In this document: in pieces, positions 6,590-13,029 of the stretch
Layout: each line of letters begins with the position of its first letter
Position numbering within the stretch: position 1 is the stretch's first letter
Origin: Xanthobacteraceae bacterium
Lineage (GTDB): Bacteria; Pseudomonadota; Alphaproteobacteria; Rhizobiales; Xanthobacteraceae
NCBI GenBank assembly: GCA_019745775.1
Contig: JAIESR010000090.1
Span: 1-63,929, forward strand
Length of the DNA: 63,929 nucleotides
Reading direction: 5' to 3'
The notes under the pieces: model-generated
Told to the model about the DNA's origin: nothing
The model's database searches: none
Seen by the model: the letters and a program-made list of their open reading frames with translations, nothing else
Program-made: the position numbers and the translations under genes

Positions 6590-7603
6590 TCACTCGAGGA
6601 ATTCCCTGGCACGCATCGCGAGGCTCTTCGGCGTGCTCAGGATCTTTTCGACGGTCTTCTGCATCGGCTCTCCGTAGACCGGGTCGACCTCGAAGCCCAT
6701 CTGCGCCGCGTCCTTGAGGAATTCGGGATCTTTCATGGTGGCACGAAACGCTTCACGCAGTGCGGCGAGCCGGTCGGCCGGCACGTCGGGCGTGGTCGCG
6801 AACGGGCGGCCAAGCTGGGTGCCGGAGACGATCAGCTCGATGGTCAGCCGATCGTCCGGCGTCTTCGCCATCTCCTCAACCGACGGCGCGTCGAGATCTC
6901 TCGCCCGCGGGCCGGCCTGCGCGACCACATAGATCTGTCTGTCCTTGAGCCATTGCGGGCGCGTCGCCTTCCAGCTCGACCAGGTGTTGTTGCGCGCCTG
7001 CACTTCGCCGCGCTCCATCGCAAGGTTGATCTGGTTGCCGCCCGGATAGCCGGTCACGATCTTGAATTTCGTGCCGAGGAATGCGTTCATCATCATCGGA
7101 TAGAAGTAGGTGATCGCGCCGCGCCCGGATGCGCCGGCCACCACCTCCTGTTTGCGCAGATCGTCCATGCTCTTGACGCCGGCGGTGTGCCACACCGCCA
7201 TGGTCTCGACCACCGGCGCCATGGTGCCGAGCCACTGCATTTTCCCGGTGTCGAATTTCACGCTCTTGCCGCCGACCGCCTGTGTCGCCGGGAAGTTGTT
7301 GCCCATCATGCCGATGAAGGTGCCGTCGCGCGCCACCGTGTTGTACAGGTGGTTGGCCATGTTGATGCCGCCGGCGCCGGTCATGTTCTGCGGCACGACA
7401 TTCGGATTGCCGGGGATGTGCTTGCCGATGTGACGCGCCACCAGCCGCGCCTGCAGATCGTATTCGCCGCCGACACCGACGCCGATCAGCACGTTGACCG
7501 TCTTGCCCTTGTAGAACTCGGCGACCGACTGGGCTTGTGCCGGTGCGCCGGCAGCGGTCGCAAGCAGCAGGGCGACGCCGACAATTGCGGAACCGCGCGC
7601 CAT
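6590..7603 (-). CDS. Bug/TctC-like periplasmic binding protein
   Basis: 337 aa with signal peptide (VGVALLLATAAGAPAQAQS). The mature part starts EFYKGKTVNVLIGVGVGGEYDLQARLVARHIGKHIPG, the variant seen in a divergent TctC-like subgroup rather than in classical Bug proteins. GASGRGAITYFY and KIVTGYPGGNQINLAMERGEV follow in the order expected of the family. It shares this architecture closely with the protein at 39379-40407 (same KIVTGY and AWERGEV-type segments), so those two are paralogues. Ligand unknown; no transporter membrane genes adjoin. Confidence 0.85.
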   Translation of the reverse strand: MARGSAIVGVALLLATAAGAPAQAQSVAEFYKGKTVNVLIGVGVGGEYDLQARLVARHIGKHIPGNPNVVPQNMTGAGGINMANHLYNTVARDGTFIGMMGNNFPATQAVGGKSVKFDTGKMQWLGTMAPVVETMAVWHTAGVKSMDDLRKQEVVAGASGRGAITYFYPMMMNAFLGTKFKIVTGYPGGNQINLAMERGEVQARNNTWSSWKATRPQWLKDRQIYVVAQAGPRARDLDAPSVEEMAKTPDDRLTIELIVSGTQLGRPFATTPDVPADRLAALREAFRATMKDPEFLKDAAQMGFEVDPVYGEPMQKTVEKILSTPKSLAMRAREFLE

Positions 7604-8457: not shown

Positions 8458-8627
8458 AGCGCATCCTGTACCCCGATCCCCGAACAAGGATTTAACATTC
8501 CTGGCACCGAGGGCAAGGACTGAAGATAAAGGGCTTCTATGACGTAGTGGATAGCCCCGGCGGGCCTCGTACGATAGGTTGCCGCGGTTCGAGGGACCGG
8601 CCGATTTGGCGGGCGGAGGGACTTTCC

Positions 8628-10167
8628 GTGGCGTCCGCATTGCTGTCCTGGAGCCCACCGGCGAGAATCACGGCCGCTATTAACCGCTGGTTCGACGCGG
8701 TTCCCGGGCAGGCGCTCTGCATCTTTCTCGGGCTGTTCGTCGCGATCTGGACGAGCTTCCAGGTCGTTTCATACGCCTCGATCGGTCTGCATTTCGATCT
8801 CCTGGAAGTGTTCGCCTGGAGCCAAAATCTGGCGCCGGGCTACAAGCATCCGCCGCTCGCCGGTTTTATCGCGGCGGCCTGGTTTGCGATTTTTCCGATT
8901 GCAGACTGGTCGTTTCATCTGCTCGCAATGGTCAACGCGGCAGTCGCATTCTTCGCGGTCGACCTCATTGCGCGGCGATATGTCGAGGGCGATAAGCGGC
9001 TTCTGGTCCTGCTGCTGCTGTTGCTCACGCCTTTGTACCAGTTCCACGGCCAACGGTTCTCGACCAACCAGGCCCTGCTCTCGACTTGGCCGATCGCGAC
9101 CTATTGCTTCCTGCGCTCGTTCGAAACCCGCTCGCTGGCGTGGTCCGCGGCCGCGGGCGCGACAGCGGCGCTTGCCATGCTCGGAAAGTACTATTCGATT
9201 TTGCTGGTGGCGGCGTTTGTCATTGCCGCGCTCATGCATCCGCGACGCTTCGACTATCTGCGCTCGCCGGCGCCGTGGGTCGCCGCCGTGGTCGGGCTCA
9301 TCGTGCTGGCGCCACATCTGCATTGGTTCTTCACGACAGGCGGACAGACGCTGGCATACGCCCAGCGGGTGCACGGCAGTTCATCGACGGCGGGTCTGCT
9401 TTGGCGGGCCGTGTCCTCCACCGTGAGCGCGGCTGGCTACGTCGGTGTCCTGCTGCTCGCCTATGTCCTGATCGTCCGGCCCGACCGTCGCGCGTTGCGC
9501 GCAACGCTATGGCCGGATAATCCCGAGGGGCGCATGCTGGTGGTGCTATTTGGAGCGCCGCTGTTGCTGCCGATCGTCGTGCTGCCGCTTATCGGGATCA
9601 AGCTCTCGGCACTGTGGACGATGCCGGCATGGTTTCTGCTGCCGATTATTCTTTTGTCGCCGTCCTCGGCGGTGGTGAAGCGCATCGATGCGGTTCGTTT
9701 GGCGTTCGTTGTGCTCTGCATAAGTCTCGTCGTGCTGGGCGGCTTCGCCGGCCGTCGCCTGGGTGCGCTTCATCGTCGATGAGACCAGGCCCGGACGCGC
9801 GCACTATGCGGCGGTCAGCGAGGAACTCACGCGCGCATGGCGGCTGACCATGAAACAGCCGCTCAAAGTCGTCGGCAGCAACACGTTTTTCGCCAATGCG
9901 GCGAGTTTCTACAGCTCCGACCACCCGCGCTCGTGGGCATTCGGCGATCCACTCATATCGCCCTGGGTCGCCGGTGACGGGCCTCCACGGGAGGGCGGTT
10001 GGGCGGCGGTCTGCCTGGCGGGCGATCAGGGCTGTCTCGCGTTCGTGGATCGCGTGGCGAAGGCGGAAGCGGTTGTCCGTCAGGAGTACGAGCACGCCGC
10101 GACGTTTCTCGGCCGGCGCGGGCCGCCGGTCCGTTTCATCTTCGTGCTGGTGCCGCCTCGTTCCTAG
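8628..10167 (+). pseudogene. GT39/ArnT-like membrane glycosyltransferase, frameshifted
   Basis: Start GTG at 8628, preceded by GGGCGGAGGG at 8611-8620. The first frame, to about 9760, encodes many transmembrane helices with hallmarks of dolichyl-phosphate-mannose-type (PMT_2) transferases: a first-loop acidic/aromatic segment (YASIGLHFDLLEVFAWSQ) and GYKHPPLAG. It ends prematurely at 9781. The soluble C-terminal part continues in another frame, from about 9750 (AVAWVRFIVDETRPGRAH) to the stop at 10167. Removing one G around 9749 joins them as GGFAAVAWVRFIVDE. So this is a single-base insertion in an otherwise well-kept gene (about 512 aa), or a sequencing error. The intact enzyme would transfer a lipid-linked sugar at the periplasmic face. 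Confidence 0.8.
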
Positions 10168-10281
10168 CTAGCAAACTGCGAGGTCACTTGGCCCGAAACA
10201 ATGCGGCATCCGCCTCGGGACGGATGCCGGGCACTGCGACGATTTGATCCGCCGTTCCGCGCTCTCGTGAGGTGGGTGGCC

Positions 10282-12114
10282 TCAACGCGCCGGCGGCAAC
10301 GGCGGATAGAGCGGCGCGCCCTCGAACAGGTTGTGCGGCTTCATGTCGAAGCCGGTCCACATCGTCGATGCCGTGCCCCAGAACGTCCGGGATGGCGTGG
10401 CGAAGGTGCCGTCCTCGTCGCGGAAGGTGTGCAGCAAGGTCGACATCAGCCACACCGTCGTCTCGGTGTTCTGGATCGACTCGTTGTTGATGTAGGGCTC
10501 GCGGCACGGAAGGTCCTTGGCCAGCTCCGACTTGCCGGCGAGCGCAACGTAGACCTCGATGTTCTCGAGGCAGCGCACATCGTCTTCGGGGAAGGTTCGC
10601 GTCGCCGCCGGATCCTTGTAGCGCGTGACCCAGAAATCCTTGCGCAGGAACGGCTCGCGGTGTCGTGGTAAGCCGCGATACGACGGCATGATCATGTAGC
10701 CCGACGCGTTGTTGAGACGGTTTCTCAGCGTCGTCGACTGCACGTGCAGTCCCGTGAACTCCATCGGGTTGAAGACGGCTGATCCTTCCACGCCGTTGTT
10801 GAACGGCTCCATCCGATCTTCCCAGACTTCCCTGATTGTCGGCCATTCGTTGGTCAGCGGACCCCTGACCCGCTTGTCACTGATGTGCCGCATCACGTTA
10901 ACGTTGGTCGCGCCGCCACGCTGCTGGTTGGTGATGCGCAGATTGATCCGCCACAGCACATTGTGGGTGTGCGCGATCCGTTCCGAGCCGGGAAAGTTCG
11001 TTCCGGTCGCGCCGGCGCGGAAATCGATCGAGCCGTCGTCATGGAACGCGTAGCTCAGCACATAGCGGTAGTTCCAGGCGTCGACGACCGCCCACAGCGT
11101 GAGCTTGTGACCGCGGTAGATGTTGTGACCGCGGAAATTGGTCTTGCCGCCGCTCACCACGACCCGCGGCGCGATCCACAGCAAGCCTTTCTCCGAGATC
11201 TCGCGCACGATGCGCCGGCCCGACGTGTTGGGGCGGTCGATGAGCTGCCCGCATCGTCCCGCGATCGAATCGATCAGCGGCTCGAGCTGAAGCTGAAGCA
11301 CGATCAGGTCCGAGAAGCGATGTGCGTTGTTCTGGTAGGGGACGAAGATTTCCGCCGGACCGGCTTCGTCGAGCACCTTGACCCACGGCTTGTCCGGTCC
11401 CGGCAGATACCACGCCTCGCTGACGAAATAGCCTTTGCGTCCGCCGTAGTTTGTCGCCACGAACCACGCGGTTTGCCGCGGGCCCGACGGCGGGAATTGC
11501 TGATAGCTGACGACATCGCCCGCGCGCCGGGTGTAGGCCGGCAGCTGATTGGCGGCAGGCATCGGCGAATGCGGCTCGCATCCGTCGGTGGAGGCGGTGG
11601 GGGCTGGTCCAGGTTGCGGCTGGCCGGGTTGTCCGGGGCCGCCGAGGCCGGGCTTGGGTGGTCCGCCGATTTGCGGCGGCTGAGCGGGTCCCGGTCCGCC
11701 CGGCCCGCCAAGCCCTGGTTTGGGCGGGCCGCCGGCTTGCGGCGGCTGACCAGGTCCGGGTCCACCCGGGCCGGGTTTCGGAGGACCTCCCGCCTGTGGT
11801 TGCGTCGGCTGCCCAGGTCCGGGCCCACCGAGGCCGGGCTTCGGCGGGCCGCCGGCTTGCGGCGGCTGGCCCGGAGCGCCCGGGCCGGGACCTGTCGTCG
11901 CCGGATCCGGCATGGTCGGCGTCGGCGGACGCTGCATGTTCTGCATCGGCACGAACTGCGGGCCGGTGCGCATGTTCAGTGGCGGAGGCGACGGCTGTGC
12001 GCTGCCGTGCGCGCCATGGTCCATGGGTGCAAGCTGTGCGAGCGCAATCGACGATGCAACGCAACCCACAAACACCAATGCCGCCCGAAGGCGGCATTGC
12101 GACGTCAAACTCAT
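10282..12114 (-). CDS. Copper amine oxidase-like catalytic subunit with Pro/Gly repeat linker
   Basis: 610 aa. Signal peptide (ALVFVGCVASSIALAQ), then a Pro/Gly-rich stretch (about 70-172) with four copies of GGPPKPGxGGPG, then about 430 residues that follow the copper amine oxidase catalytic (D4) domain. Matching landmarks in order: AEIFVPY (255-260); WNYRYVLSYAFHDDGSIDF, with Tyr349 at the topaquinone precursor position; HTH at 382-384 for two Cu ligands; RKDFWVTRY; and His562 in LLHTFRDED for the third ligand. The topaquinone consensus is altered: Asp replaces the Ser/Thr three residues before Asn, and Arg350 replaces the Asp/Glu after Tyr. The gene upstream encodes a D2-D3-like protein, so the enzyme appears split. 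Oxidative deamination of amines in the periplasm is inferred and depends on whether topaquinone still forms. Confidence 0.8.
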   Translation of the reverse strand: MSLTSQCRLRAALVFVGCVASSIALAQLAPMDHGAHGSAQPSPPPLNMRTGPQFVPMQNMQRPPTPTMPDPATTGPGPGAPGQPPQAGGPPKPGLGGPGPGQPTQPQAGGPPKPGPGGPGPGQPPQAGGPPKPGLGGPGGPGPAQPPQIGGPPKPGLGGPGQPGQPQPGPAPTASTDGCEPHSPMPAANQLPAYTRRAGDVVSYQQFPPSGPRQTAWFVATNYGGRKGYFVSEAWYLPGPDKPWVKVLDEAGPAEIFVPYQNNAHRFSDLIVLQLQLEPLIDSIAGRCGQLIDRPNTSGRRIVREISEKGLLWIAPRVVVSGGKTNFRGHNIYRGHKLTLWAVVDAWNYRYVLSYAFHDDGSIDFRAGATGTNFPGSERIAHTHNVLWRINLRITNQQRGGATNVNVMRHISDKRVRGPLTNEWPTIREVWEDRMEPFNNGVEGSAVFNPMEFTGLHVQSTTLRNRLNNASGYMIMPSYRGLPRHREPFLRKDFWVTRYKDPAATRTFPEDDVRCLENIEVYVALAGKSELAKDLPCREPYINNESIQNTETTVWLMSTLLHTFRDEDGTFATPSRTFWGTASTMWTGFDMKPHNLFEGAPLYPPLPPAR

Positions 12115-12140
12115 GAAAACCCCCTGAGAGCCCGCATCGG

Positions 12141-12734
12141 CTATTGCTGCTGCACGCTGACCGTCGCGTCCGACAGGTTGACGGATACTTGCACGCCGGT
12201 CACGAAGCCTTGCGGCGTGTTGATGACCGCGCGCACAATGCGCCTGCCGTAGAGCGGATCGGATGGATCGGTGATCACGGTCGGGATCAGGCCGATATCG
12301 ACGGCGCCCTGGAACGGCGCAATCAATTCCTGAATGCGTGCGTCACTCATCAGCAGCGAGCGCGCGTAGTCGGCTTCGACGGTGCCCACCGGCGTGCCGG
12401 TGTCGGTCGATGTCCGCTCGCTGACGATCGCGTTGGTGTCGAGATCGACCATGCGGTTGGTCGTGATGTTGCCTTCGTACTGGTAGGTGGTCACGACCGC
12501 GAGACGGGAACCGTTGTCGGTCCGGACCGCCTCGACCCGCGACACCACCACACGATTGGGCGTGCCGCGCGCACTGACTGCATCGGGATGCAGCGCCGCC
12601 GGCGCCTCGATGGCGCCCGCACCGGCGATCCGCGCTGCCAGCTGCTCTTCAACGGGGGTCAGCGATTGCGCGCTCGCGGCGGCCGCAAAGCCGCTGCATG
12701 CCAGCGCCAAAACCAAAGCCTTTACGGAAGTCAT
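12141..12734 (-). CDS. Secreted copper amine oxidase N-domain (D2-D3)-like protein
   Basis: 197 aa from the ATG at 12734, with a GAGGAGG Shine-Dalgarno just upstream. A signal peptide ends AAAASAQS. The mature sequence starts LTPVEEQLAARIAG and continues with NRMVDLDTNAIVS, EADYARSLLMSDARIQELIAP and GRRIVRAVINTPQGFVTGVQVSVNLSDATVSV. This order (strand pair, EE(F/Y)..A..L...D.R..ELI helix, then a GRRI..A strand block) matches the small N-terminal D2 and D3 domains of copper amine oxidases, which normally precede the catalytic domain in one chain. The gene lies 26 bp before the catalytic-domain gene on the same strand, so co-expression and assembly in the periplasm are likely. The match is read by eye and needs a profile search. 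Confidence 0.65.
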   Translation of the reverse strand: MTSVKALVLALACSGFAAAASAQSLTPVEEQLAARIAGAGAIEAPAALHPDAVSARGTPNRVVVSRVEAVRTDNGSRLAVVTTYQYEGNITTNRMVDLDTNAIVSERTSTDTGTPVGTVEADYARSLLMSDARIQELIAPFQGAVDIGLIPTVITDPSDPLYGRRIVRAVINTPQGFVTGVQVSVNLSDATVSVQQQ

Positions 12735-12814
12735 GTCGCCCCTCCTCGGGATAGGATTACCTGATCCCGTGTAAGTCGCTGCACAACTAGCAGAAACTGT
12801 GTCATTGGGGTTAC

Positions 12815-12842: not shown

Positions 12843-13029
12843 AGCCATCTGCACTTGCTTTGGGCAAGTCTAATCCCTGCATATTGCAGTCGAATTCCGA
12901 CCTTTAGTTATCGGCCACGATGCGCGGCAACCACCGGCATTACGAATATTTAATCGCAGATAGCGACTGCGCCGGGCACGGCGATGCCCGGCGCATATGC
13001 AAACCAAACCCGGCGTTGGCCGGCAAAGG

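Follow-up and report, generated by a model that had tools for sequence, protein, structure and literature searches.

In the excerpt of PMC3382800, the structurally characterised copper amine oxidases (CAOs) are all homodimers, each monomer bearing its domains along one sequence, and their D2 and D3 are two like alpha/beta domains of ~100 residues each. Here, we analysed a gene pair in the contig JAIESR010000090.1 of a Xanthobacteraceae bacterium (the window, 63,929 nucleotides at its full length), where D2, D3 and the catalytic D4 are distributed over two open reading frames (ORFs) instead of one, as they are in all three intact cases found.

The two neighbouring ORFs lie on the minus strand at 12734-12141 and 10282-12114 with 26 nt between them, the small gene of 197 amino acids (aa) first and the large gene of 610 aa next. 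A preliminary description had proposed two adjacent same-strand genes here, quoted motifs from both and assigned D2-D3 to the first chain and D4 to the second. The ORFs and the motifs were confirmed, and the domain assignment is borne out by profile-profile comparison, predicted fold, residue mapping and the pair in two other genomes. These were one genome of the same genus (G007) and one from another family of the class (G769), both with the same gene order and strand.

The pair likely encodes one exported CAO made of two chains, D2-D3 being on the small and D4 on the large. This is the best reading because the catalytic residue set and the order of D2-D3 are preserved, the break between the chains falls between domains, namely in the D3-D4 connection, the two genes share their location and they were lost jointly in one relative.

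Homology of the two chains

The small gene (12141..12734, minus strand; ATG at 12734 and stop at 12141) encodes a putative exported D2-D3 homologue. Its protein opens with a Sec-type signal sequence (12669..12734, minus strand) ending in ASA before Q, and the large protein does likewise (12037..12114, minus strand; ALA before Q). Both were recognised by eye, in agreement with the signal peptides claimed before.

In the AlphaFold2 (AF2) model of the small chain (pLDDT 76, pTM 0.68), a unit of helix and four strands occurs twice. The D2-like repeat, about residues 24-110 (12405..12665, minus strand), has a helix at 27-37 and strands at 62-71, 77-85, 90-97 and 102-109. The D3-like repeat, about residues 118-196 (12147..12383, minus strand), has helices at 118-130 and 132-141 and strands at 146-152, 166-173, 181-186 and 191-196. 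Foldseek compared this model with the PDB and gave 1173 matches (E ≤ 10), the best 50 of which were CAOs without exception (50/50), with E from 1.6e-6 and prob 1.00.

The profile of the three small-family members is colinear with D2-D3 of 45 ordinary CAOs (hhalign P 94.1%, E 1.2e-7), which are the 45 of 53 loci whose frame a motif script could pick. Similarly, the comparison with 21 ordinary CAOs gave P 94.6% and E 6.9e-8. The true score is 53.1, and 200 column shuffles reached 22.7 at best, so 0/200 come near, while the reversed profile scored 11.8 and the alignment against D4 15.8.

Single sequences are less telling. The window's small protein had no Pfam match at E ≤ 10 and only three non-CAO matches in a PDB sequence search (E 0.17-0.8). 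Among the NCBIfam models, its single weak match was primary-amine oxidase (model positions 60-128, E 0.085); two of the three family members matched this model, at best with 1.4e-4, and no other model was listed.

Judged by both profile-profile alignment and structure comparison with the predicted model, the homology of the small chain to D2-D3 is well beyond chance. Hence, the single-sequence Pfam null is overturned by the three-member profile and the fold, through which D2 and D3 are both found. This leaves an annotation gap, the small subunit being invisible to Pfam.

The large gene (10282..12114, minus strand) encodes a putative exported CAO catalytic chain. PF01179 matches its protein with E 1.4e-14 and 54.2 bits at a cut-off of 27, and exceeds the cut-off in all three large proteins, with 68.3 bits in G007 and 55.7 bits in G769. 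Thus, of the Pfam matches expected from the preliminary description, PF01179 on the large chain was obtained and N2/N3 on the small chain were not, though D2-D3 are given there by the profile and the fold. The PDB sequence search reached only E 0.047, to E. coli CAO. The three-member large-chain profile aligns with D4 of the same 45 ordinary CAOs over 344 columns (hhalign P 99.8%, E 5e-28), delimiting a D4-like catalytic domain at about residues 180-605 (10300..11577, minus strand).

The roles of the catalytic residues, including the Tyr that hydrogen-bonds the cofactor, are as given in the excerpt of PMC3382800. On the minus strand, Tyr260 of a VPY motif (11335..11337) aligns with this conserved Tyr, and Asp269 (11308..11310), the candidate catalytic base, aligns to the FD of FDxGEY beside a gapped stretch. 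Tyr349 in NYRY (11068..11070), the candidate topaquinone precursor preceded by Asn348, aligns with NYDY/NYEY. The candidate copper ligands are His382 and His384 around a Thr (10963..10971), aligned to HxH, and His562 in LLHTFRDED (10429..10431), aligned to the His before PRxED.

Tyr260, Asp269, Asn348, Tyr349, His382, His384 and His562 are invariant in 3/3 members despite 33% identity to the distant one. Therefore, the three copper His (HxH and a C-terminal one), the Asn-Tyr precursor, the catalytic Asp and the conserved Tyr of a CAO are all found on this chain. The motif-to-residue assignment follows in part the AGAO numbering, and VPY is taken as the place of the conserved Tyr.

Ahead of D4, the large chain has a Pro/Gly-rich N-terminal extension of 151 aa (11581..12033, minus strand; 58% P+G), part of which is a 66-nt tandem repeat (11639-11773). 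This stretch had been suggested to join the two subunits. We rejected that role, because the stretch is N-terminal to D4 on the catalytic chain's own sequence and is variable, being shorter in G007 and absent in G769. It would be a lineage-specific spacer.

The mature N-terminus of the large chain (residues 28-38, about 12001-12033) reads LAPMDHGAHGS with His and Met, and G007 has DTHLHS. From its residues, this N-terminus could bind copper.

Recurrence, surveys and descent

In G007, a 218-aa gene and a 515-aa gene are 29 nt apart, in the same order and strand and at the same place beside ahcY. The identity between the window and G007 is about 48-48.7% for the small and about 51.1-52% for the catalytic chain, versus 81.6% for ahcY. 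The conservation at codon positions 1/2/3 is 0.61/0.68/0.45 in the small gene and 0.63/0.68/0.50 in the catalytic gene. Since both genes diverge alike with positions 1 and 2 more conserved than 3, both are, by their codons, evolving fast but constrained.

In G769, a 181-aa gene and the catalytic gene of 416 aa that follows it share 11 nt, at the end of the former and the start of the latter. This small gene (L038 5351-5893) has a lipobox-like start, LMAGC, and by eye encodes an apparent lipoprotein. Given this start and a sub-threshold DUF2380 match, a comparison of DUF2380 with CAO D3 may be worthwhile.

A third species of the genus (G002) has a deletion relic between ahcY and an amidotransferase gene (L011 5635-5866), in which a piece of the small gene is joined in a different frame to the catalytic gene's 3′ part. 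The remaining five genomes of the genus, with completeness of 69-93% and in 670-990 contigs, had no PF01179 match and no small-profile match better than E 0.05.

Outside these genomes, the Methylocystis parvus plasmid pMpar-2 (L121 4016-4414) encodes a 132-aa 'hypothetical protein' that is the C-terminal fragment of a split-type CAO. It is present in two plasmid records, is closest to G007 with 37% identity and has an IS110 transposase about 1.3 kb upstream. No small-gene match was found among the plasmids searched. Intact split-type copies may occur in methanotrophs.

One CAO gene could have been split artificially by a frameshift or an assembly error, as CAOs are normally single chains in the excerpt of PMC3382800. 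However, the large chain starts independently, with a ribosome-binding site and a signal sequence of its own, and the recurrence of the arrangement in three genomes refutes such an error, which is next to impossible.

Of the 297 order and 385 class genomes surveyed, 67 and 26, respectively, contain PF01179. In these two surveys, the window and G769 gave the sole weak, divergent full-length matches, and the remaining matches score as ordinary CAOs with E 3.1e-93 or better. The short-frame exceptions are two partial ones, of 50 aa (G060) and 213 aa (G526), and a strong one of 346 aa (G092, E 4e-98). In the order, the other PF01179 frames are at least 593 aa and long enough for D2-D3, except those of 346 and 50 aa. 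The N-termini were inspected for part of the matches. In the window's genome (G000), G007 and G769, the pair is the sole PF01179 match in each.

These surveys were used in place of searches with the whole large protein, the first of which found no match; over the 297 order genomes, with at most four candidates scored per genome, at least 1/297 was obtained. The genome-contig search gave 16 loci, two of them split (G007 and G769) and the other 14 with an ordinary N-terminus. The HPLD-type N-terminus lies ahead of the match in 13/14, and the fourteenth (L078) is likewise ordinary. A stop is just inside the match in L075, and the match reaches the end of the locus in L081.

More widely, 398 genomes of the phylum, 116 relatives of G769 and 139 genomes of another family, with at most 4, 16 and 13 candidates scored per genome, respectively, in the rows shown, yielded no further split type beyond G000 and G769. 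The other matches score at most 77 bits, versus 572-717 for the split-type members, and their frames are 558-922 aa long, or 213 aa where the contig ends. Weak small-profile matches elsewhere (E 0.001-0.4) were taken as chance: the eight loci examined (L113-L120) have no CAO match in their DNA, and two more weak rows are outside that check.

The three split catalytic domains group together with support of 100/100 in a tree of 82 such domains, separated from the rest by 2.68 + 2.44 changes per column. Besides the three, the tree holds 79 of 97 loci, the others being duplicates or failing a motif filter that admitted only D, E or N behind the Tyr, which excluded a Val/Ile type. Fission of a fused ancestor would be the simpler assumption, because D2-D3 and D4 are fused in the other lineages examined. 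The root is the midpoint, and the tool warns of unsure placement on such long branches.

The same branches could mark a deep separate CAO lineage, whose D2-D3 and D4 have been distinct subunits for a long time or from the start and whose quinone is maybe formed or held differently beside an Arg or Asn. We regard this as improbable, and its cofactor part is the weaker one because the cofactor consensus is variable in ordinary CAOs too. If true, the pair would encode a heteromeric topaquinone enzyme that sheds light on how the single-chain family was assembled.

A proposed two-chain oxidase and its alternatives

Both chains would probably be exported unfolded by the Sec pathway. In the proposed enzyme, D4 would bind copper via His382, His384 and His562 and oxidise Tyr349 to topaquinone. 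The small chain would dock non-covalently at the usual D2-D3 site and so complete the fold, probably together with the entrance of the substrate channel. As CAOs are dimers through D4, a particle of D4(2) + D2D3(2) is expected. Acting in the periplasm or at the surface, it would convert a primary amine by oxidation to aldehyde, with ammonia and H2O2 as the other products.

Several points weigh against such an enzyme. Taken singly, the small proteins have no match to Pfam N2/N3 (3/3), unlike an ordinary CAO used as a control, whose N3 match is at 4.6e-19, and they reach only P of 62, 43 and 78% in hhalign. The best 50 of the 1173 Foldseek matches have query TM values of 0.44-0.55 and identities of 11-18%. 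For the catalytic domain, AF2 reached only pLDDT 37, too low to judge the chain interface.

Further points against it come from the relatives. The intact pairs known are only three. In 3/3 of them the small gene is directly upstream of the catalytic gene, so that no intact homologue of the second protein found does without its neighbour, but the Methylocystis parvus fragment stands alone, no small-gene match being found nearby. Two sub-threshold matches were obtained for the G769 small protein, to the lipoprotein family DUF2380 (E 0.0057) and to PepSY (E 0.087, 13.6 bits versus the PF03413 cut-off of 24). Finally, the cofactor Tyr is followed by R in the window and G769 and by N in G007, not by D or E.

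The PepSY match would be in keeping with a propeptide- or inhibitor-like function of the small protein, and the catalytic residue set is all on the large chain. Accordingly, the large chain might by itself be an oxidase reduced to D4, and its neighbour a separate exported factor, such as a chaperone or an inhibitor, derived from an old D2-D3. However, the small chain retains D2 and D3 in order. Moreover, its gene is immediately upstream in all the intact cases and was lost together with the large one in G002, and the PF01179 frames of the order survey other than the two short ones have room for D2-D3. A D4-only oxidase is therefore unlikely.

The cofactor site bears on another alternative. It reads DAWNYR in the window, GSGNYN in G007 and DGGNYR in G769, departing from the textbook T-x-x-N-Y-D/E in that the Thr three before the Asn is absent and the D/E is replaced. 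We read this site in 94 of 98 other CAO loci. Thr is in 77/94 and missing in 17/94 (11 Val and 6 Glu), and D/E follows the Tyr in 88/94 (otherwise 5 Val and 1 Ile), while Arg or Asn does so in 0/94.

In the excerpt of PMC3382800, Glu-to-Gln substitution beside the cofactor Tyr of HPAO-1 slows the cofactor formation tenfold, and the natural Arg/Asn sits at that place. The Val/Ile loci are six full-length ordinary CAOs of the class (L028 and L106-L110; TIGNYVY and TIGNYIY). As these six also lack the Asp/Glu, the Arg/Asn change alone does not mean loss of function.

The pair may have decayed by fission and drift into a degenerate, non-enzymatic relic after losing the cofactor formation. This would fit the NYRY/NYNY site with a letter unseen in the other loci, the very long branches, the identity within the genus of 48-52% compared with 82% for ahcY, the deletion relic in G002 and the C-terminal plasmid fragment in Methylocystis parvus. 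Nevertheless, both frames are open in three genomes, the catalytic residues listed above stay invariant at 33% overall identity, both genes show the codon-position bias, and ordinary CAOs also dispense with the Asp/Glu. Such a relic is very unlikely, and the two-chain oxidase remains our preferred reading.

Surroundings of the pair and known systems

A Shine-Dalgarno-like GAGGAGGGG (12739..12747, minus strand), a purine-rich ribosome-binding site, is positioned to favour the small-gene ATG at 12734 over a GTG at 12854 further upstream. Another purine-rich site, AGGGGG, precedes the large gene. A terminator-like hairpin of 11 pairs, found by consensus match only, is 3′ of the large gene (10204..10229, minus strand), and another lies behind ahcY (13023-13010); the whole stretch has five such consensus sites versus 2.8 expected. 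With hairpins both behind it and behind ahcY, the pair may form a separate unit of two genes, flanked by ahcY and an opposite-strand PMT_2 glycosyltransferase gene. The search detected no sigma-70-like promoter.

The PMT_2 gene (8547-9782, plus strand) separates the pair from the amidotransferase gene in the window, unlike in G007 (L010), where the amidotransferase gene is directly after the pair. Adjoining the amidotransferase gene in the relatives are three exported-looking tandem proteins, 325-416 aa as listed (L010 372-3513, minus strand; L011 6936-10448, plus strand). They presumably resemble TctC/Bug-type binding proteins, and the window copy (6590-7603) has no Pfam match at E ≤ 0.001.

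Among the matches listed in the open-licence literature, the titles and abstract openings name no two-chain bacterial CAO. A splice variant of VAP-1, the human primary amine oxidase, shares a shortened CAO chain with the split type, and heterodimers are mentioned in the excerpt of PMC3548902. It differs, according to the same excerpt, in being a splice form of one human gene, whereas the split type is two genes.

The PepSY-type proteins share with the small chain a small exported domain and the one weak sub-threshold match in G769, the other two small proteins having none. The small chain differs from them in its two tandem units colinear with CAO D2-D3 and in its structural matches, all CAOs among the best 50 of 1173.

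The ordinary CAOs of the PF02727-PF02728-PF01179 architecture, such as Arthrobacter globiformis AGAO, E. coli CAO and Hansenula HPAO-1, are the closest. They share with the split type the D4 match, the copper ligands, the cofactor Tyr with its preceding Asn, the catalytic Asp and the VPY Tyr, and their D2-D3 has a homologue encoded directly upstream of the split D4. The split type differs by the two exported chains, judged by eye, the Arg or Asn after the cofactor Tyr, the lack of a Pfam N2/N3 match, the shorter loops in the alignment and its own deep group in the tree. If the reading is true, a natural two-chain CAO would let D2-D3 be omitted, exchanged or titrated without protein engineering, so that their role in the cofactor formation and the substrate choice becomes testable.

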